DNA from: Flavobacterium aquariorum
Lineage (GTDB): Bacteria; Bacteroidota; Bacteroidia; Flavobacteriales; Flavobacteriaceae
NCBI RefSeq assembly: GCF_003254745.1
Contig: NZ_QKXH01000001.1
Coordinates: 1 to 64,000 of the forward strand
Direction: 5' to 3'
DNA length: 64,000 nt
Made by a program: the position numbers and the translations under genes. Position 1 is the first letter of the stretch; every line of letters begins with the position of its first letter. Under the pieces are notes generated by a model, which saw nothing but the letters and a program-made list of their open reading frames with translations, made no database searches and was not told where the DNA came from. Below, in pieces: positions 16,591 to 64,000 of this stretch.

Positions 16591-17690
16591 TTTTCTTTTT
16601 ATTAAGCATAGCAATCGTTTATATGCTGACTATAAGTTGGCTCATTTATGGTTTTACCAAAATAAATCAGTTTGAATTCATTGGTCTGCCTCCAAAAACC
16701 AGTTTTAGCATTATTGTCCCTTTTAGGAATGAAGCCGAAAATTTACCGGTTTTATTGGAAAGTTTTTCAAAATTGAATTACCCAACCGATTTATTTGAAG
16801 TGATTTTGGTTGATGATGAATCGGAAAAAGAATTCAGATGGCAGAATACAGATTACAGAATACAATTTTTGAAAAACATCAGACTGTCGAATTCTCCCAA
16901 GAAAGATGCCATTACAACCGCTATGGAAATCGTAAAATCCGATTGGGTTGTTACCACCGATGCCGATTGTGTGGTTCATAAAAATTGGTTATTAGCTTTG
17001 GACAATTTCATTCAGTTGCATCATGTTTCGATGATTGCAGGAGCGGTTACCTACAATTACAATAATTCCTTTTTACATCATTTTCAACAATTGGATTTGG
17101 CTAGTTTACAGGGCGCAACTATAGGAAGTTTTGGAATCAAAAAAGGTTTTATGTGCAATGGAGCCAATTTTGCCTATACCAAATCATTTTTTAAAAAGCT
17201 CAAAGGCTTTGAAGACAACTCTGCAATTGCCAGTGGTGATGATGTTTTTCTGTTGCAAAAAGCGTTAGCCAAATACCCCGAAAAAGTAGCCTATTTGAAA
17301 TCGAAGAATACTATTGTAACCACAAAGCCAGTGAATGATTGGAAATCGCTGTTTTATCAGCGAGTGCGCTGGGCTTCCAAAACGACTTCTTATCAAAGTG
17401 TCTTTGGAAAAAGATTGGGGCTACTTGTATTTGTGATGAATTTTAGCTGTGTCTATTGTTTGGTGCTGACTTTTTTGGGCATGTTTCCCTATTTTTTCGT
17501 TGGGCTATATTTCCTAATCAAGTTTGGAATTGACTCTGTGCTGATACAGCAAACAAACAAATTCTTGACGAGACATAAAATCCGCTATTTGTTTTTAAGC
17601 AGTTTGTGGTATCCGTTTTTCAGTACCACTGTAGCTTTGTATTGTCTGTTTGGAAAATACGAATGGAAAGGGAGGAGGTTTTTGATTTAA
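16587..17690 (+). CDS. family 2 glycosyltransferase
   Basis: Inverting GT2 enzyme that transfers a sugar from a nucleotide donor, probably to a lipid or envelope acceptor. 367 residues: an N-terminal membrane helix, the GT-A domain starting SIIVPFRNEAENLPVLL (about 46), the DxD region TTDADCVVH (about 128), the GDDVFL motif (about 216), RVRWASKT (the Q/RxxRW motif), then two to three C-terminal transmembrane helices. Residues FRWQNTDYRIQ (about 83-93) are encoded by five degenerate heptamers. The stop codon runs directly into an 11-copy GATTGCA array. Confidence 0.9.
   Translation: MIFFLLSIAIVYMLTISWLIYGFTKINQFEFIGLPPKTSFSIIVPFRNEAENLPVLLESFSKLNYPTDLFEVILVDDESEKEFRWQNTDYRIQFLKNIRLSNSPKKDAITTAMEIVKSDWVVTTDADCVVHKNWLLALDNFIQLHHVSMIAGAVTYNYNNSFLHHFQQLDLASLQGATIGSFGIKKGFMCNGANFAYTKSFFKKLKGFEDNSAIASGDDVFLLQKALAKYPEKVAYLKSKNTIVTTKPVNDWKSLFYQRVRWASKTTSYQSVFGKRLGLLVFVMNFSCVYCLVLTFLGMFPYFFVGLYFLIKFGIDSVLIQQTNKFLTRHKIRYLFLSSLWYPFFSTTVALYCLFGKYEWKGRRFLI
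16833..16867 (+). repeat. degenerate heptamer array inside the glycosyltransferase gene
   Basis: Five consecutive units: TTCAGAT, GGCAGAA, TACAGAT, TACAGAA, TACAATT. They match the family unit TGCAGAT with one to four changes each and are translated in frame. Confidence 0.6.
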
Positions 17691-17767
17691 GATTGCAGAT
17701 TGCAGATTGCAGATTGCAGATTGCAGATTGCAGATTGCAGATTGCAGATTGCAGATTGCAGATTGCA
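17691..17767 (+). repeat. eleven perfect GATTGCA heptamers
   Basis: Eleven exact tandem copies (77 bp) start at the base after the TAA of the glycosyltransferase gene. Because 7 and 3 are coprime, the array has no stop codon on this strand in any frame, which creates a spurious open frame reading RLQIADC repeatedly. Perfect copy identity points to recent expansion by slippage. Confidence 0.98.
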
Positions 17768-56565: not shown

Positions 56566-58158
56566 ATGAGAAAATCTATTGTGTTGCTTATCCTTCTTAT
56601 TTTGGGCTCTTCCCTTTCTATGCTTTCCTGTAAAAAAAAGGAAGATGCTAATCTAAAATTACCTCATAAGATTAATGCCTTTAACAAAGTAAAAAGCCTG
56701 CCTCCATTTGACAGTACTCTGGTCAGCTCCTTTTTTACAAAACATCCTGAACTTCAAAAATACCAAGAAGAAACAAGCGAATTGTATCGAAAACGCAATT
56801 ATCAATACATTTGGTTTGATACCAAAGGCATGCTGGAAGTTAGCAATTTACTGTATAATAAATTAAACAATATGGAAGACGAAGGAATTAAAGCCGTCAT
56901 CCCATACAAAGAAAAACTTGACTTCCTTTTTCAGAATGCGACTGAAAATCAAAGCGCGAATGTCAATGATGAATTATTGATTACATCTCTTTATTTTTTT
57001 TATACACACAAAGTTTTAAAAGGAATAGACGACAAGAAAATTGCTGAATTGGGTTGGTATTTACCCCGAAAAAAACAATCCTACGTCAATTATTTGGATT
57101 CAATAATTGCCAATCCTTCGCTAATTAACAAAAACGAAAAAGAAATATTGAATGAGTATTACAGCCTCAAAGAAGTACTCCATAAATACAGAAAGATTCA
57201 AAAAAATAATTTTTGGAATACCATAGAAATGGATTCCAGTCATACCTATCTCAAGCATGGAGATTCTTCTCAAACTATTGTCCAAATCAGACAGCGGTTG
57301 TTTATATTGGAAGACATAGCAACAGACTCAAAAAGCACCATATACGATGAGTCTCTTGCTTCTGGAATTCTAAAATACCAAAAACGAAATGGTCTAAAAG
57401 AAAACCAAATAATTACTCAAAAAATCATAGCTTCTTTGAATATCCCAATAGAAAACCGCATCAAAACAATCATGGTCAATATGGAACGCTGTCGATGGAT
57501 TGATGTTGATGTTGCCAAATCCAAAGAATTGATTGTGGTGAATATACCGTCCTATCGATTGACGTATTTCAAGGAAGGAAAACCTGTTTTGACCTCCAAT
57601 GTGGTTGTTGGAAAAGACATGAACAAAACCGTGATTTTTAGTGCCGATATGCGTTATATCGTTTTTAGTCCCTACTGGAATGTTCCGACAAGCATTATCA
57701 AGAAAGAGATTAAACCTGGTATAGCCAAAAACAAAAACTATCTTGCCCAACACAACATGGAATGGAACAATGGTAATGTTAGACAAAAACCCGGACCTAA
57801 AAATTCATTAGGTCTAGTGAAATTTTTGTTCCCTAATTCGAACTCTATTTACTTACACGACACACCTTCAAAAGGTTTGTTTAACGAAGAAAAAAGAGCT
57901 TTTAGCCACGGTTGTATCAGAGTTGCGAAACCAGTGGAATTGGTTAATGAAATACTAAAAGACGATAAAAACTGGACACCCGAAAAGATTAATGCCGCCA
58001 TGCATAAAGGCAAAGAAACGTGGTATACCCTCAAGAACAAAATCCCTGTTTACATTGGTTATTTTACTGCTTGGGTTGATAACGAGGGGGTTATCCATTT
58101 TTATGATGATGTCTATCAAAGAGACAATCGTTTGGCAACGATGTTGTTTGAAGAATAA
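56566..58158 (+). CDS. L,D-transpeptidase, YcbB-like lipoprotein (copy 2)
   Basis: 530 residues. Lipoprotein signal MRKSIVLLILLILGSSLSML-SC. The same layout as copy 1 at 51018: a scaffold region (KYQEETSELYRKRNYQYIWF), peptidoglycan-binding-like region, then the catalytic domain with SIYLHDTPSKG and SHGCIRVAKPVEL. Shared stretches such as MVNMERCRWID and VFSPYWN show that the two are paralogues. This copy is lipid-anchored while copy 1 has a plain membrane helix. Confidence 0.9.
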   Translation: MRKSIVLLILLILGSSLSMLSCKKKEDANLKLPHKINAFNKVKSLPPFDSTLVSSFFTKHPELQKYQEETSELYRKRNYQYIWFDTKGMLEVSNLLYNKLNNMEDEGIKAVIPYKEKLDFLFQNATENQSANVNDELLITSLYFFYTHKVLKGIDDKKIAELGWYLPRKKQSYVNYLDSIIANPSLINKNEKEILNEYYSLKEVLHKYRKIQKNNFWNTIEMDSSHTYLKHGDSSQTIVQIRQRLFILEDIATDSKSTIYDESLASGILKYQKRNGLKENQIITQKIIASLNIPIENRIKTIMVNMERCRWIDVDVAKSKELIVVNIPSYRLTYFKEGKPVLTSNVVVGKDMNKTVIFSADMRYIVFSPYWNVPTSIIKKEIKPGIAKNKNYLAQHNMEWNNGNVRQKPGPKNSLGLVKFLFPNSNSIYLHDTPSKGLFNEEKRAFSHGCIRVAKPVELVNEILKDDKNWTPEKINAAMHKGKETWYTLKNKIPVYIGYFTAWVDNEGVIHFYDDVYQRDNRLATMLFEE

Positions 58159-58176
58159 CTGATTCCAACATAAAAC

Positions 58177-58208
58177 AAATGAGGCTGCCCCAAAAGACAG
58201 CCTCATTT
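58177..58208 (+). terminator. bidirectional terminator after L,D-transpeptidase copy 2
   Basis: Stem AAATGAGGCTG / CAGCCTCATTT with a loop of about ten bases (GCC..AAAAGA), symmetric for both convergent genes. Confidence 0.82.
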
Positions 58209-58229
58209 TATATGTATTTGATAATTCGC

Positions 58230-58544
58230 TTAATGTGCTTTTTGTTTATCGAATGTAGTGTTGAGCACTTTTTTGATTTTATCCAAAGCTCCGTTGAATG
58301 CTTTTTCGATAGAGTCAGCGTGTTCTGTGACTGCGATTGGCTGCATATTGGCAGGACGCGCTTCAATAAGACAACGCTTGTCGTTTACGCCTAATTTGGC
58401 ACTGTTTTCGTCTCCAAAATGCACTTCTATACGAGTCACTTTATCATCAAAACGGGATAATACTCTTGTTATTTCAGTAGAAAAATAAGATTCTAATCTT
58501 TCGCTTCCTTCTACATTCTTGTCTGTGTTGATTTGTACTTTCAT
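58230..58544 (-). CDS. ribosome hibernation factor (HPF/RaiA family, short form)
   Basis: 104 residues, the short form of the HPF/RaiA (sigma-54 modulation) family that binds the 30S decoding centre and stops translation in stationary phase. MKVQINTDKNVEGSERLESYF, VTRIEVHFGDENSAKLGVNDK and the AVTEHADSIEKAFNGALDKIKKVL helix match. No long-form C-terminal dimerisation domain is present. Confidence 0.88.
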   Translation of the reverse strand: MKVQINTDKNVEGSERLESYFSTEITRVLSRFDDKVTRIEVHFGDENSAKLGVNDKRCLIEARPANMQPIAVTEHADSIEKAFNGALDKIKKVLNTTFDKQKAH

Positions 58545-58683
58545 ATGTCTATTATTATTAATTTTTAATGCTTATTCTCAAAGTTAAAAATTATTCCCTA
58601 AAACAGTCCCGTTTTAGTAAAACATTATGAAAGAAAAAAGTTGTTTTTTGATTTAAAGACAGAAGTGTCTGAAAAAGAAAAAT

Positions 58684-59115
58684 TTATTGGTTGGCTTGGG
58701 TTTGCAGTAACGTAATTTCTTGTTGGATTACGGCAATACAATCTTCCAGCTTTTTTTCAATTTCGTGGCTCCAAAAACGGATTACTTTCCAATTTTGCGA
58801 TTCCAAGAAATTATTGACCTCAACATCTCTTTGAATGTTTCGTTCTATTTTCTTTTGCCAAAACTCAGTATTGGTTTTGACACGGTCTTTTTGGGTTTCC
58901 CAATCTTTTCCGTGAAAGAATTCGCTGTCTACAAATATGGCAATTTTAAGTTTTTTGAAGGTTAAGTCTGGCGTACCAAAAACAGTTCGATTGTTTTTAC
59001 GGTAACGGTAGCCGAGATGCCACAAAGCTTTTGCCAATCGCACCTCATCTTTGGTATTGGTGCTGCGAATGGCACCCATAATTTTGGAACGTTGTTGTGG
59101 TGTAATACGATCCAT
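58684..59115 (-). CDS. vsr: very short patch repair endonuclease
   Basis: Vsr nicks 5' of T in T:G mismatches formed by deaminated 5-methylcytosine. 143 residues, canonical. Motifs: RSKIMGAIRSTNTKDEVRLAKAL, YRYRKNNRTVFGTPDLTFKK (catalytic Asp about 50), IAIFVDSEFFHGKDW (His, Gly), NFLESQNWKVIRFWSHEIEK. It lies 151 bases downstream of the HpaII-type endonuclease on the same strand, so it likely protects the host of this methyltransferase from deamination. Confidence 0.95.
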   Translation of the reverse strand: MDRITPQQRSKIMGAIRSTNTKDEVRLAKALWHLGYRYRKNNRTVFGTPDLTFKKLKIAIFVDSEFFHGKDWETQKDRVKTNTEFWQKKIERNIQRDVEVNNFLESQNWKVIRFWSHEIEKKLEDCIAVIQQEITLLQTQANQ

Positions 59116-59266
59116 GACGTAACAATTTAAAAACTGTTACTCAAAGTTAGGGCTTTATTTAAAGAGAAACTATTTTTAAAAAATGATTATTTACAAGGAG
59201 AATATTTATTCTTCAACGAACTTATAAAATCCCCTATCAGTCTGAAGAACATTTATTTTACCAAGA

Positions 59267-60421
59267 TTATTTTATAAATCTAATTTGTAAATTGAGTTTA
59301 ATAAATAGCTCTCCATTTTCCTCATATATCCAACCATATTTATATGGTTTAGGTGATAGATTTTTTGCAAAACCTGGATTCAAGTCATCTTCACTTGTTG
59401 AAGCTTGTTCAAGTTTTGTATGATTAATCAAATAATCTTCAAATTCGTTCTTATTGTATATATGATAACAAACCAGATCACCATTATCTTTTACTATAAT
59501 AATCCCCCCCGTTGCATCATACTTACCTGTCCAAACTGATTCTGGAGTCATTCCTAAGGCACTTTCCGTAAGGAAATTTTTTATTTTATAATCATAAAAA
59601 GGGTGCCCTTTTGAAATATTAAAACCTAATGGATTCTTAAATTTAATTTCTTCCAGAAGGTCAGTTAATTTTGATTTTCCATTTTTGAATTTACAATAAA
59701 TCAAATGGGATAATATCTCAGGTAATTGAGAATCTATTAATTGTAAATTTAATTCTAAATTATCAGATTGGATTTTTTGAAACACAATCTTACAATTTAG
59801 ATCTTCTAATTCATTTAAACGTAAAGCAATTTTAGATGAACTCTTATTTTGTTGAGAATATAATAAAGTATCTGTATTAATTTTTTTAAAATTAAGAATC
59901 AAACCTTCTGGTTTTAATATTTTGAAAATAAAATTAGTACCTGCAGCAGGATTAAAAAGAGTTGAATCTTTACCAATCATTGATTTAATACTAAATCCAA
60001 GTGTTGGTTTTAAACCCGTATTCATATCATGAACGACAACTCTAATATCAGCCTTATCAGTTTTAACAGCAGCCAAAGATTTAACATCGATACTGTTTAT
60101 GAATGATTCTATTGTTGGAAATGAAAAACTTCTGCCAGTTGCTTTTTTCAGGTAACCAAAAAGTTCTTGTGATTTTTGAATAAAATCTAAAACAGAAACT
60201 GTAATGACTTTTTTAGAAGTATTCCCATCAATAATTTCAATATTGCCATTAAGAACAAATTCCCTCTTTTCAGCAGCTTCTTGTCTAAGTATTTTTATAA
60301 TTGGATAATAAACTCCAGGAATTGCATTTAGATTAGCATCTGCTGCATTTAGTTTTCCCTCAGCAAGAAGTTTTAAAAAAACATATATTTCACTCCATTC
60401 TCCTTTGTTTCCTGTTATCAT
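59267..60421 (-). CDS. HpaII-family type II restriction endonuclease
   Basis: 384 residues. The N terminus TGNKGEWSEIYVFLKLLAEG and the SIKSMIGKDSTLFNPAAGTNF region match the HpaII restriction endonuclease family (RE_HpaII); a predicted recognition site of CCGG is inherited from the family and not proven here. Its start overlaps the stop of the methyltransferase gene by four bases (60418-60421), so translation is coupled and restriction follows methylation. Cytosolic. Confidence 0.85.
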   Translation of the reverse strand: MITGNKGEWSEIYVFLKLLAEGKLNAADANLNAIPGVYYPIIKILRQEAAEKREFVLNGNIEIIDGNTSKKVITVSVLDFIQKSQELFGYLKKATGRSFSFPTIESFINSIDVKSLAAVKTDKADIRVVVHDMNTGLKPTLGFSIKSMIGKDSTLFNPAAGTNFIFKILKPEGLILNFKKINTDTLLYSQQNKSSSKIALRLNELEDLNCKIVFQKIQSDNLELNLQLIDSQLPEILSHLIYCKFKNGKSKLTDLLEEIKFKNPLGFNISKGHPFYDYKIKNFLTESALGMTPESVWTGKYDATGGIIIVKDNGDLVCYHIYNKNEFEDYLINHTKLEQASTSEDDLNPGFAKNLSPKPYKYGWIYEENGELFIKLNLQIRFIK

Positions 60422-61683
60422 AATTTGGATTTTATCAAATCAATAATTTTCTCAGCTGTTGCCTGTATTGCAGGAACTGCAACAGAATTTCCAAATTGTT
60501 TATACGCAGAAGCATCAGCAACAGGAATGATGAAATTATCTGGAAAACCTTGTAGCCTCGCCCATTCTCTAGGAGTCATTTTTCTAATTCCTTCACGATT
60601 AACTTCACCTTTAATATGGGTCGTCGGAGTGAAATCTGTAATTCTTTTATCAATCACAAGATTTCTCTCTCTTCCCATTCCTCCCACTAGAATTGAATTT
60701 GATATTTCATCATCTTTAATAATTGCGAAACCAAATCCATTTCCTTTATCAGCATGCCTAGCTTTGTGATTAATCAGAGTTTGCAAATATTGAGTTGACA
60801 AATAGTATTTAGTAGGAACAACTTTCTTTTCTTTTACGTTTTTAAAAAACACTTTTTCTTCAAAAGGTTCAGGATATTCAAATGAGTTTATTCCTAAATC
60901 TTCTCTAAAACCTACAATATAAATTCGCTCTCTATTTTGGGGCACTCCAAATTCTTTGGCATTAATAATTTGAGGTTCTGGGACAAAATATCCTAAATCA
61001 TTTCTCAAAACGTTTAAAATAGTTTCCAGCGTTTTCCCTTTATCGTGACTCCTTAATCCTTTAACATTCTCTAAGAAAATTGCTTTTGGTTTCTTTGTTT
61101 TTATAATTTCTGCTACATCAAAAAAAAGAGTTCCTCTTGTATCTTCAAAACCACCTCTTTTTCCTGCAATAGAAAATGCTTGACATGGAAAGCCAGCACA
61201 TAAAAGATCAAAATCATCAGGAATATATTTTTTTGTTCTTTCTTTTGTAATATCTCCAAAAGGAGTTTCCCCAAAATTTGCTCTATAGGTTTTTTTTGCA
61301 TTCTCATCCCATTCGCTGGTAAAAACGCATTTTCCTCCCAGATTTTGCATAGCCATTCTGAATCCTCCAATTCCCGCAAACAAATCAATGAATTTGAAAG
61401 TATAATTTTTTGGAGTTGGAAAAGGGACATTTTCTACTTCAAATAATAATTGTTGCAGTGCTATATCAGAAACAATATTTAAATTTTCTTCTTGATTTTT
61501 ATATTCAACAATCTCATTTAAATAAATTTTCGCTTCTTTTTCATAGTGTTTTTTTACTCCATTATGATAATTATGAAGATAATGAGTCACTACCGCTTTT
61601 TTGTTATCGTCTTCTTCCAAAGTTCGAATTTTAAACTTTTTACCATCAAACTCTTCTATTGATATTTGCTCTTTCATTTTCAT
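60418..61683 (-). CDS. DNA (cytosine-5) methyltransferase
   Basis: 421 residues. An N-terminal extension of about 95 residues of unclear fold precedes motif I FIDLFAGIGGFRMAM (about 103-117). The catalytic motif IV GFPCQAFSIAGKRGGFED (about 160-177), ENVKGLRS (VI), QNRERIYIVGFR (VIII) and QFGNSVAVPAI (X) are all intact, so it should be active. Target recognition lies between VIII and X. It overlaps the HTH gene by four bases upstream (61680-61683) and the endonuclease by four bases downstream, forming a coupled operon. Confidence 0.95.
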   Translation of the reverse strand: MKMKEQISIEEFDGKKFKIRTLEEDDNKKAVVTHYLHNYHNGVKKHYEKEAKIYLNEIVEYKNQEENLNIVSDIALQQLLFEVENVPFPTPKNYTFKFIDLFAGIGGFRMAMQNLGGKCVFTSEWDENAKKTYRANFGETPFGDITKERTKKYIPDDFDLLCAGFPCQAFSIAGKRGGFEDTRGTLFFDVAEIIKTKKPKAIFLENVKGLRSHDKGKTLETILNVLRNDLGYFVPEPQIINAKEFGVPQNRERIYIVGFREDLGINSFEYPEPFEEKVFFKNVKEKKVVPTKYYLSTQYLQTLINHKARHADKGNGFGFAIIKDDEISNSILVGGMGRERNLVIDKRITDFTPTTHIKGEVNREGIRKMTPREWARLQGFPDNFIIPVADASAYKQFGNSVAVPAIQATAEKIIDLIKSKL

Positions 61684-61901
61684 TTCTTAAAATTTAATTC
61701 GTTAAAAAAAGTCGCAAAATCACTATCCAATGCGAGGATTATTTTTTCAATTATTTCAATGGAGACATTTCTTTTTCCTTTCTCAATGTCAGAGATATAG
61801 GTTCTGTCCACATTTGAAATATTTGCCAAAAACTCAATTGAGAAACCTTTTTGTTCTCTAAGCTCTTTGACTTTAAATCCGAATTTTTCTTTTATATTCA
61901 T
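61680..61901 (-). CDS. small HTH (XRE-type) regulator of the restriction-modification operon
   Basis: 73 residues: one helix-turn-helix (GFKVKELREQKGFSIEFLAN, VDRTYISDIEKGKRNVSIEI), like controller (C) proteins of type II systems. It is the first gene of the operon and its start is 20 bases from a 12-bp inverted repeat (61922-61954) that could be its operator. Role in delaying endonuclease expression is known for C proteins and is inferred here. Confidence 0.85.
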   Translation of the reverse strand: MNIKEKFGFKVKELREQKGFSIEFLANISNVDRTYISDIEKGKRNVSIEIIEKIILALDSDFATFFNELNFKK

Positions 61902-61921
61902 AGTTTATAAAAATAGTTTCG

Positions 61922-61954
61922 TGAGGACAATTGACCTGCTTACAATCGTCCTCA
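61922..61954. promoter_or_regulatory. inverted repeat upstream of the HTH gene, possible operator
   Basis: TGAGGACAATTG (61922-61933), nine bases, CAATCGTCCTCA (61943-61954): 12-bp arms with one mismatch. A TATTTTTA box lies between it and the ATG (61908-61915). The position fits autoregulation by the HTH protein. Confidence 0.6.
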
Positions 61955-62170
61955 TTCATAATTAGTTTTCAACGTGTTTTCAGACCAAAAAACACCCCCT
62001 CTTTTCTCTAGCGTTTTCAGTAATTGGTAATTTAAGTCCCTTATCAAAGCCCCATCTGTTATAATTATTGAGAAGTAGGAACCAAAATGTTCAATAGACA
62101 TCTAATACGAGCTAAAGAAGGATTTAGCCCCATTTTTTATCCTAAACTAGCCTTATTAATCAAAAAAAGA
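61955..62170. other. gene-free stretch between the restriction-modification operon and the 22-bp array
   Basis: About 215 AT-rich bases with no open frame of note, no hairpin and no recognised repeat. It joins the possible operator to the repeat array. Confidence 0.4.
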
Positions 62171-62390
62171 GGTGCTAAGTACCTCTATTATTGGTGTTAA
62201 ATAGCAATAGTATTGGTTTTAAGTACCAATACTACTGGTGCTTAATACCTCTATTGTTGGATTTAAATACCTGCTTTGATGGTCTTAAATACCAATATTA
62301 TTGGTTCTTAGCACCTCTATTATTGGTTTTAAATACCTACTTTAATGGTTGTAAGTACCAGCAATAGAGGTGCTAAATACCTCTATTCAA
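62171..62390. repeat. ten-unit 22-bp quasi-palindromic tandem array
   Basis: Ten contiguous units of exactly 22 bp. Each has a first half GGTnnTAAnTA and a second half such as CCTCTATTATT or CCAATATTATT. The GGT..TAA..ACC core and the CC..TAT..GG junction are both near-dyads, so symmetry centres recur about every 11 bp. Units are degenerate. Stops occur in all frames, so it is not coding. It lies between the restriction-modification operon and the ThrE genes. Confidence 0.95.
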
Positions 62391-62415
62391 TTCTTTTTTC
62401 AATTTTGAAAAACAA

Positions 62416-62443
62416 AAAACGCCAATCTTTCGACTGGCGTTTT
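62416..62443 (-). terminator. terminator of the ThrE-type genes
   Basis: Minus-strand hairpin AAAACGCCA / TGGCGTTTT with a ten-base loop followed by T-rich sequence, 20 bases after the stop at 62465. Confidence 0.8.
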
Positions 62444-62464
62444 GAGGTTTACAAAAGGTTTATT

Positions 62465-62986
62465 TTAGTTTTCTTCTTCTAAGTTTTCGAGTTGTTTTTC
62501 TAAAACAATATCAGTTTTAATTCGCTTCACGGTTTCCTTACGGGTGATGAGCAACGGGATGGCAACCCCTGCGGCCAAAGCCAAGATGATAAAACAAGCC
62601 GAGAGACCGTTCTTTACCGTTTCAAAAAAGAGTTTGGTATAAACATCCGGATCTTGTTCGGCAGTTAATTTCATTACTCCTACCATGGCTTTGTAGGCAA
62701 AAAATCCCGGAATCATAGGAATCAATGCGGGAAGCGCAAAAGTCATGGGCGGCGCTTTGCGATAGTGTGCCGCCAATACACTAGAAAAACCAATAAGGCT
62801 TGAACCGCATAAGGCCGCGAAAACCAATCCTACTTCGAGTGATATTAAATAAAATTTGAGCAGTCCGCCCAGTGCTGCGATGATATATATAACTCCTAAA
62901 GTACGGCGAGGCACATTGAACAAAACGGCAAAACCGATACCTGCACAACCCAACCAAATTCCTTTTTCTAATAATGCAAAATCCAT
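62465..62986 (-). CDS. threonine/serine exporter, small subunit (ThrE_2 type)
   Basis: 173 residues, five predicted transmembrane helices: LGCAGIGFAVLFNVPRRTLG and ALPALIPMIPGFFAYKAMVG are typical of the ThrE C-terminal half. In Corynebacterium ThrE the two halves are fused; here they are split, and this gene follows the larger half by one base (62988 to 62986), so the two are cotranslated. The substrate, probably threonine or serine, is by family. Confidence 0.88.
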   Translation of the reverse strand: MDFALLEKGIWLGCAGIGFAVLFNVPRRTLGVIYIIAALGGLLKFYLISLEVGLVFAALCGSSLIGFSSVLAAHYRKAPPMTFALPALIPMIPGFFAYKAMVGVMKLTAEQDPDVYTKLFFETVKNGLSACFIILALAAGVAIPLLITRKETVKRIKTDIVLEKQLENLEEEN

Positions 62987-62987
62987 T

Positions 62988-63761
62988 TTAGTGTAAATTA
63001 AAAATTAATAATGAAACCATCAATCCCAATGCAATGGCAAAAGCGATGACCAAAACATTTACGCCTCTGGTGGTTCCGTTTAATATGTTTCCGTCGATCA
63101 AATCCGAGAAGGAATTAATCATAGGCACACCGGGAATTAAAAACAATACCGATGTGGATAAGGCATGTATAAATTCTCCCTCGGGATTTAGAAACGAATA
63201 GAGCCCGACCAAGAACGAAGAGGTTAAAGCCGCAAAGAAAATACACACATAAAAATTGAATTTGAGTTTCATGGTTTCCTGTCTCACAAAAAGCCCCAAG
63301 AAACTTCCTGAAAAGCATAGAATCATTTCGATTAATCCACCACCAAACAATCGGCAAAATGAAGCTCCTGCCAAAGCGACCAAAAACAAAACTGCAAACC
63401 TTGGATATAATGGTTTTCGGTCTAGCAATTTCATTTCTTTATTGATGCGCTCCACAGACCATTTTTCTTCCACAATTTTCCAACTCATCGTACTGATATC
63501 CGAAATGAGATTGAAATTGAGGTGCATATTCGGCACCCATTTTACACTGGTAAACGTTTTGATATTGTCTTTATAGGTTAAAGTAATCATCAAAGCATGA
63601 TTGGTAATCATTAAATCCGAATCACAGCAAAAAGCACCGGCTATTCTGCTGATGGTGACTTTGACACGTTCGGTATTGGCTCCTGAAACCATCAGTAAGG
63701 AACCTATTTCCAGGAGCATTTCTCCCAGTTCGTATTTGTTTGGTTTTGCAACTAATTCCAT
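62988..63761 (-). CDS. threonine/serine exporter, large subunit (ThrE type)
   Basis: 257 residues. The cytosolic N-terminal domain has MLLEIGSLLMVSGANTERVK and the RI..A..CDSDLMITNHALMITL pattern; five C-terminal helices include PLYPRFAVLFLVALAGASF and VLFLIPGVPMINSFSDLIDG. This is the N-terminal half of ThrE-type exporters. A symmetrical CATGATATACATCATG site lies 55 bases upstream of the start. Confidence 0.9.
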   Translation of the reverse strand: MELVAKPNKYELGEMLLEIGSLLMVSGANTERVKVTISRIAGAFCCDSDLMITNHALMITLTYKDNIKTFTSVKWVPNMHLNFNLISDISTMSWKIVEEKWSVERINKEMKLLDRKPLYPRFAVLFLVALAGASFCRLFGGGLIEMILCFSGSFLGLFVRQETMKLKFNFYVCIFFAALTSSFLVGLYSFLNPEGEFIHALSTSVLFLIPGVPMINSFSDLIDGNILNGTTRGVNVLVIAFAIALGLMVSLLIFNLH

Positions 63762-64000
63762 ATAAATGCGGTTGTTAATTTTACTCCCAAATTTAACAAA
63801 TTAACCCCTTAAAAGCATGATATACATCATGAAAGCATTAATTTGTTAAGATAATAAATAACAAGTGATTTCTAACGATTTCGCTTGTGGTTAAGCATGA
63901 AAAAAGACCCGAAATTGGGAAAGAAGTGGTGTATTTGCAGTTACTATTTGGCTTTTTGGAGGTCCTTTTTGGAGTTATAAAACACAAAAAACGTCAGACT
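63762..64000. other. gene-free stretch at the right edge
   Basis: 239 bases with no gene. It holds a TAAATTTG box on the minus strand (63788-63795), the 16-bp palindrome at 63816-63831, and T-rich sequence to the edge. No other element was recognised. Confidence 0.5.
63816..63831. promoter_or_regulatory. palindrome with TGAT-N4-ATCA core
   Basis: CATGATATACATCATG: six-base arms CATGAT/ATCATG around ATAC. The TGATnnnnATCA core is the layout of Crp/Fnr-family sites (TTGATnnnnATCAA). It lies 55 bases upstream of the ThrE start codon, slightly upstream of a TAAATTTG box, so it could act as an activator site. Confidence 0.45.

Follow-up and report, generated by a model that had tools for sequence, protein, structure and literature searches.

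What is the ten-fold repeat at positions 62171–62390 of the stretch of DNA analysed here (the window; 64,000 nucleotides of Flavobacterium aquariorum), and does it belong to the restriction-modification (R-M) operon beside it? From repeat calls and pattern analysis the repeat was annotated, with no strand assigned, as a solo (orphan) array of ten 22-bp units (GGTNNTAANTACCNNTANTATT). The units abut, each is exactly 22 bp long and no indels occur. GGT forms the unit start in nine of ten units, and ACC occupies unit positions 11–13, likewise in nine of ten. 13-bp palindromes (GGT-N7-ACC) alternate with 15-bp palindromes (ACC-N9-GGT), with half-sites in common and one dyad per 11 bp. Periods of 22, 44 and 66 bp were assigned by Tandem Repeats Finder. 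Self-identity was 0.66 at lags 22 and 44 and 0.75 at lag 66; since the lag-66 value exceeds that at lag 22, the array contains a higher-order repeat of three units (66 bp). The 66-bp repeat also hints at 66-bp duplication as a mode of growth.

The array is real and goes beyond a chance pattern. Compared with the 0.66 of the array, identity reached at most 0.44 in dinucleotide shuffles (n = 1000, lags 15–34) and at most 0.43 in any lag-22 stretch in the rest of the window. The dyad score gave a single centre-phase peak modulo 11 (0.69; runner-up 0.45). An earlier sequence-only reading had described a 22-bp period without slip over ten units, dyads every 11 bp, the dyad CCAATA-T-TATTGG at 62292–62304 and a distance of 270 bp between the array and the start (61901) of a C-protein-like helix-turn-helix (HTH) gene. 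All of this was borne out: the period by lag identity against shuffles and by unit alignment, the dyad spacing by the phase peak, the named dyad by reading the sequence, and the distance as given. A CRISPR array was rejected, as the units abut without spacers, and an Rfam scan of 58000–64000 returned no family at gathering score. Elsewhere in the window, AGATTGC is repeated perfectly 11 times at 17690–17767, a possible slippage site.

The surroundings of the array were annotated by domain search, alignment and comparison. On one side lies a terminator-like hairpin of a ThrE-like operon (62414–62444, minus strand; sequence and comparison), which forms an edge of the array-bearing segment. It is followed by a ThrE-like exporter pair as conserved flank (62465–62986 and 62988–63761, minus strand; domain search), the DNA of which was matched in genomes G030, G111 and G349. 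On the other side, 62021–62170 (no strand) is array flank in common with the orthologous ThrE site of G111 by alignment, and 61986–62020 (no strand) holds a second copy of the ThrE terminator, probably decayed (alignment, judged by eye in the window). Beyond this, domain searches placed the C-protein-like HTH_3 gene of the R-M operon (61680–61901), an HpaII-type R-M system (59267–61683; C5 methylase 60418–61683, HpaII endonuclease 59267–60421) and a Vsr mismatch endonuclease gene (58684–59115), all on the minus strand.

The same site is occupied differently in relatives. In G111 a window-type array is found at the same end of the ThrE-like operon, and an HNH gene replaces the R-M genes. The order after the array is this HNH gene, which is related to PT-DNA restriction enzymes and matches restriction models, a gene for a 163-aa protein, Vsr (86% identical to the window protein) and HPF (94%); no C-like HTH match accompanies the array. 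G030 has the C-like HTH (97% identical), the methylase (97%) and an HpaII-type gene (46%), as well as Vsr and HPF. At the array spot of G030 there is an array with a different unit and a period of 21 bp, which gave weak matches alone elsewhere. In G349 the region upstream of a 93% identical C-like HTH abuts the ThrE terminator, and the array is absent. The G349 methylase is 56% identical to that of the window, i.e. related and not the same R-M, and no HpaII match was obtained in the 6.5 kb read. In both G111 and G030, Vsr still lies beyond the variable genes as seen from the array. The second terminator copy, which bounds the array segment, is intact at the matching spot of G111; in the window and in G030 it seems to have decayed. 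Because array and R-M genes occur apart in G111, G030 and G349, they are separable at one busy site. The proposal that the array marks the boundary of a mobile locus is upheld in part, in that the array adjoins genes which differ between genomes.

The genome of the window (G000; 4.38 Mb, 57 contigs) was searched for further copies by DNA similarity and pattern. The window unit occurs in five arrays: the window array and those at C39:~104 kb, C39:~373 kb, C45:~197 kb and C56:~32.7 kb. Those at C39:104 kb and C56:32 kb lie directly upstream of paralogous 120-aa HTH genes. Two more solo arrays with period 22 belong to the GCC type, which is that of the C27 HTH, so that the solo arrays of this genome fall in two unit types. 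Altogether the genome contains at least five solo arrays and seven arrays upstream of ~120-aa HTH genes. Judged by sequence comparison, the window repeat is a solo copy of an array family, and its likely partner HTHs are those at C56:32855 and C39:104313. The adjacent C-protein-like HTH is probably no partner of this copy.

Genomes of the genus were scanned for the window-type pattern, which was found at least three times in 6 of 150 (G000, G005, G030, G031, G051, G111); single matches in ten other genomes are no more than the reversed-pattern control gives. Five of the six encode a close HTH (E<1e-56). G005 kept a solo array and has a C-terminal HTH fragment; an intact partner HTH was not found there. 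Window-type arrays are absent from the remaining 12 of 18 genus genomes in which the HTH was matched, which would be expected of HTHs with other units (period check only). The outcome of scattered arrays with variable period, named as a possible refutation, was not encountered as far as period is concerned, which stays at 21 or 22 bp. Relative to the downstream gene, eight of nine solo arrays share the orientation of the parent arrays; a uniform orientation was rejected, since the GH3 copy of G000 is reversed. Solo arrays did not consistently score best against the HTH array of their own genome; the window array scored highest against a G111 array. The evidence that solo arrays evolve in concert with the HTH array of their genome was mixed, and such concerted evolution is not claimed. 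As a separate observation, G098 carries GGGGTTCGGAACCCC/GACGTC-type arrays at three places (L224, L227, L229), one of them behind an X-like gene (X is described below), and has no match to the array-linked HTH family.

The HTH family was followed through its upstream arrays. G000 encodes six clear paralogs and a weaker seventh at C39:464735. An array precedes each of the seven genes (z 6 to 19), and several different units are represented. Repeated entries of one locus were dropped from the counts, and loci under 70 bits were kept apart. At 45 of 50 HTH loci with at least 70 bits, many of them orthologs from related species and hence not independent, the best upstream period was 21 or 22 with z above 3 (model A1, 30/34; model A2, 15/16). 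The five exceptions are L055, where a 22-bp array is present and outscored by another lag, L078 (lag 22, z 2.2), L162 (lag 20), L065 and L066. The HTH genes of the last two lack the N-terminal part and have no array upstream, and they are possibly decayed copies. Among loci under 70 bits, period 21 or 22 with z>4 was found in 4/12 (A1 set) and 6/8 (A2 set). Unit palindromy was supported (p<=0.05, column permutation) in 29 of 50 arrays. With the own genome counted each time, the HTH is found in 18/150 genomes of the genus sample, 9/395 of the phylum sample and 4/299 of the family sample.

An overlapping set of 40 loci was refetched with up to 13 kb. At a stricter cut of 0.50, an array was present within 320 bp before the HTH in 34 of 40; the six loci below the cut include the degenerate 22-bp arrays L167, L171 and L205. 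Elsewhere in the same loci, windows taken at 90-bp intervals reached this cut in 0/4997 cases for lag 22 and in 7/4997 for lag 21, a lag at which 7-bp simple repeats can also give a signal. Eight lag-21 stretches lie outside HTH upstream regions (one each at L173 and L191, two at L192, four at L202; one was judged by eye). Two of the L202 stretches, near the C56:205629 HTH at about +3718 and +4311 relative to its start, are possibly further arrays of its type or simple repeats.

An AlphaFold2 model of the array-linked HTH (mean pLDDT 81, pTM 0.52) contains a five-helix XRE/Cro-type domain (residues 19–78) and a 32-residue helix (88–119). The top Foldseek matches were XRE regulators, e.g. HipB, C.BclI, P22 c2 and SinR, with E values of about 0.01–0.04 and none below 0.001. 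NCBIfam gave no match and Pfam one sub-cut-off match to a coiled-coil family. Neither a WYL nor a transposase domain was matched, and phmmer against PDB chains returned nothing at E<=1.

The array unit varies with the N-terminal half of the HTH and not with the remaining C-terminal part. In the set of 24 loci that have 22-bp arrays, the similarity of units was correlated with HTH identity at r = 0.79 (residues 2–16), 0.74 (17–32), 0.85 (33–56, the predicted second and third helices), 0.44 (57–80) and 0.44 (coiled coil, 85–119), values which still include shared descent. With the other segments held fixed, partial r was 0.54, 0.32, 0.53, -0.30 and -0.22 in the same order. The unit thus tracks the N-terminal arm about equally with the recognition-helix region (0.54 vs 0.53). 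A dependence on residues 33–56 alone (partial r 0.75) was dropped, because it fell once the N-terminal arm was added and both then stood at about 0.5; the recognition-helix segment is no longer singled out. Some phage repressors contact DNA by N-terminal arms. The alignment column most associated with the unit was 10, followed by 50, 49, 31, 8 and 28. For the 21-bp arrays (25 loci) the correlations were weaker and much alike across the HTH segments (r = 0.47 for the HTH domain, 0.44 for 33–56, 0.41 for the rest), with 0.29 for the coiled coil. In Mantel permutations, which like the correlations include shared descent, the observed r was matched in 0/1000 cases, the exception being the coiled coil in the 22-bp loci (2/1000).

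Taken as a family, the arrays look like a gene-control switch which in Bacteroidota usually stands before an HTH gene. The array is probably a helically phased operator for multiple dimers, with the window copy probably bound in trans. About twenty alternating half-sites, one per helical turn, would all face one side of the DNA, and a dedicated XRE-fold HTH with a C-terminal coiled-coil helix would oligomerise along the array and coat it cooperatively. The two-turn spacing outlasts the divergence of the units, the units follow the HTH and the alternating palindromes share half-sites; all this suggests a filament of protein along one face of the DNA and most simply the operator of an autorepressor. 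In parent loci the repeated sites lie directly upstream of the regulator gene. The HTH most likely represses itself, since its gene starts roughly 0–140 bp behind its own array, and repression probably extends to the variable genes behind, which would be silenced in an all-or-none manner. No such regulator lies in cis to the window copy, which would be a solo operator, most likely bound by the C56:32855 and C39:104313 HTHs. The idea of a cooperative protein-binding array in helical phase, put forward from the window alone, is thereby strengthened by comparison (constant 21/22 bp, co-variation of unit and HTH); binding itself we infer. The solo array of G005 with its HTH fragment speaks against the operator reading. 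Further points against it are the arrays at X loci that lack the HTH (see below), unit palindromy supported in no more than 29 of 50 arrays, a recognition-helix segment that does not stand out beside the N-terminal arm, the weaker correlations of the 21-bp set, and solo arrays that do not consistently match the HTH array of their own genome best.

The same G005 array, found without an intact partner, would suit an account in which the window array is a relic, left over from an X-array-HTH cassette after loss of the HTH and without present function. No HTH of the array-linked family lies in cis and the spot differs among genomes, as such a leftover might show. We consider this unlikely, as the period is intact across ten units with each half-site kind kept in nine of ten, and as intact HTHs of the same array type are present in the genome. 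Nor did an HTH remnant show up beside the window array: an HMM search of its flank returned nothing above inclusion threshold. In the search of five flanks of solo arrays none exceeded the threshold (top match G051, E 0.013).

The array could instead act as single-stranded DNA or RNA, i.e. as a multi-hairpin recombination or attachment site at which neighbours are exchanged, a terminator or an RNA-stability element. Its RNA form folds much more stably than shuffles (z -8.5), an excess which the dyads by themselves would explain. Arrays do precede variable genes, and in G111 two terminator copies flank the array segment of the ThrE site. Flank duplication is not general, however: any match was present in 3 of 45 loci and the terminator only at the ThrE site of G111, so target-site duplication was rejected as a general mark of insertion. 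The constant 21/22-bp phase despite strong change of the unit suits helical phasing better, and changes of the unit go along with changes in the N-terminal half of the HTH. Together these points make a single-stranded role decidedly unlikely.

Very improbable is a nucleoid-organising or gyrase-type (BIME-like) element, whose dyads would serve to bend DNA or to attract an abundant chromosomal protein, with the HTH link as a secondary feature. Several intergenic arrays per genome, and 21-bp arrays that also follow X genes without an array-linked HTH, would agree with it. The genome has no more than about a dozen known arrays, however, and units of paralogs differ inside one genome and vary with the adjoining HTH. 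It is hardly credible that the array serves as control region for the R-M operon and is a binding site of the C-protein-like HTH encoded there. The array does lie 270 bp upstream of the C-like gene, and the weak structural matches of the array-linked HTHs include C.BclI, but the C-like HTH is arrayless in G349 and stands beside another unit in G030, the G111 array has no C-like match, and the window unit occurs at four other places of the genome, two of them before another HTH family. The earlier tie of the array to this operon and its HTH was accordingly abandoned, and direct control of the R-M genes is doubtful also because the array is 270 bp away and behind the probable decayed terminator copy.

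In the wider setting of the putative operator, a gene for a ~165-aa helical protein, here called X, is found upstream, and the array sits between X and the HTH gene. X was present upstream in 33 of 71 rows of HTH loci, a list that includes weak homologs, one locus twice and some short upstream stretches. X had no match at cut-offs in Pfam or NCBIfam (one of three queries gave a sub-threshold DicB match), no noteworthy PHROG or PDB sequence match and no useful PDB fold match. It was found in 25 of 296 genomes of the phylum sample. In 16 of 30 X loci examined, the 600 bp downstream of X contain an array of period 21 or 22 (z>=5), and the HTH is present in four of these 16. X loci without an HTH in the fetched flank are still followed by an array (z>=5) in 12 of 26 cases, from which it follows that an array can exist without the HTH regulator beside it. 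The X-array pair is thus wider than the HTH. If the operator reading holds, another binder must exist at HTH-less X-array loci.

The genes behind the HTH are variable. At an orthologous locus in four genomes they encode proteins of 364, 285 and 218 aa, of 322 and 254 aa, of 167, 153 and 179 aa, or a 521-aa kinase; orthology was called from shared neighbours, a 421-aa gene (G000, G030) and a 755-aa gene (G030, G111, G349). PADLOC (E<=1e-5) matched 174 model families for 82 proteins near arrays, i.e. next to HTHs or solo arrays, and 17 for 77 proteins farther off, a tally of redundant models rather than proteins, to which a few proteins including the window methylase contribute most. The near set was picked by hand: 13 of 87 proteins were removed as housekeeping-like and eight from solo arrays, including the window R-M, were added. 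An enrichment of defence genes beside arrays is therefore suggested and not more, given model redundancy, few driving proteins and hand selection. Individually confirmed near genes are LmuA and LmuB (L193), a PD-T4-6/mad6-like kinase (L194), two PycC-like cyclases (L204), an HNH restriction gene (L127) and a PDC-S09 protein (L199); in the one-by-one check, 4 of 10 proteins were without match. SieB, Abi_alpha, Cap4 nuclease and HepT appeared once each in the near set among 25 of 51 Pfam families listed. Matches of the far set included DprA and RmuC homologs, along with matches to AriA, AbiLi, GajA, PtuA and mad models. The variable genes downstream of arrays include Lamassu, Pycsar-type and restriction genes.

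Two individual loci were noted. At L204 (3412–5687), two genes for PycC-like cyclases and one for a 180-aa protein follow directly behind an array-linked HTH, possibly a two-cyclase variant of Pycsar. At L052 (1473–4036; G000 C56:202.5–205 kb), genes for a protein with TIR-like C-terminus, a 121-aa and a 365-aa protein lie upstream of the C56:205629 HTH; judged by eye, the group resembles a defence cluster.

Tentatively, X, the two-turn dyad array and its cognate HTH may form a chromosomal platform of Bacteroidota, at the downstream edge of which defence and other genes are swapped. In this possible joint scheme, paralogs would be orthogonal protein-DNA pairs with filaments of their own, solo arrays would extend the reach of a regulator, and the X-array pair would be older and wider than the HTH. 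Arrays and HTHs offer natural pairs of operator and protein in which the half expected to contact DNA varies with the unit, i.e. data for a code from protein to sequence. The uncharacterised X and the regulator mark spots in Bacteroidota where genes, including anti-phage genes, come and go. Such loci could aid the discovery of new defence genes and show how these genes stay quiet.

Several known systems share features with the arrays. Operators of C proteins of R-M systems and of XRE/Cro phage repressors consist of few sites; fold and likely autoregulation are in common with the present HTH, whereas the arrays have about ten units. Plasmid iterons and ParR/parC-type centromeres are phased repeats coated by a small DNA-binding protein. 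In contrast to these, the window array lies on a 630-kb contig of chromosomal size. Neither HTH nor X had a match in phage or plasmid records, and one pattern scan of viral contigs with the HTH alignment found nothing, which for the records searched speaks against a phage or plasmid origin. REP/BIME elements with RAYT are intergenic palindromic repeats with one linked gene family and solo copies. The present arrays differ in being strictly 21/22-bp, and the linked protein is an XRE-type HTH with coiled coil and no transposase match.

Within open-licence PMC papers, no title or abstract start was found that describes these arrays, nor a precedent for their scale, paired diversification, solo copies and X. 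The N-terminal domain of CapH (7t5u) is a weak structural match of the array-linked HTH. The WYL regulators BrxR/CapW, and CapK/CapS, likewise control or adjoin anti-phage operons (PMC9122601, PMC9122589, PMC9122588, PMC13373217); the abstract starts of these papers mention no multi-unit phased array, and the present HTH has no WYL match. RptR of E. coli is the repressor of a Type I R-M/DarTG2 defence island and acts on its own promoter via repeated palindromic sites (PMC12255303). It resembles the present case as a small regulator beside defence genes with serial repeated palindromic sites before its own gene (PMC12255303). The RptR sites are given there as three 9-bp repeats with a 6-bp palindrome, found across Gammaproteobacteria (PMC12255303). 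Unlike these, the present arrays consist of about ten two-turn units of 21/22 bp with overlapping alternating palindromes, are linked to an XRE-fold HTH with coiled coil, and have paralog-specific unit sequences, solo copies and X upstream. Because RptR works through repeated palindromic promoter sites (PMC12255303), the repeated-operator mode proposed here has a precedent.
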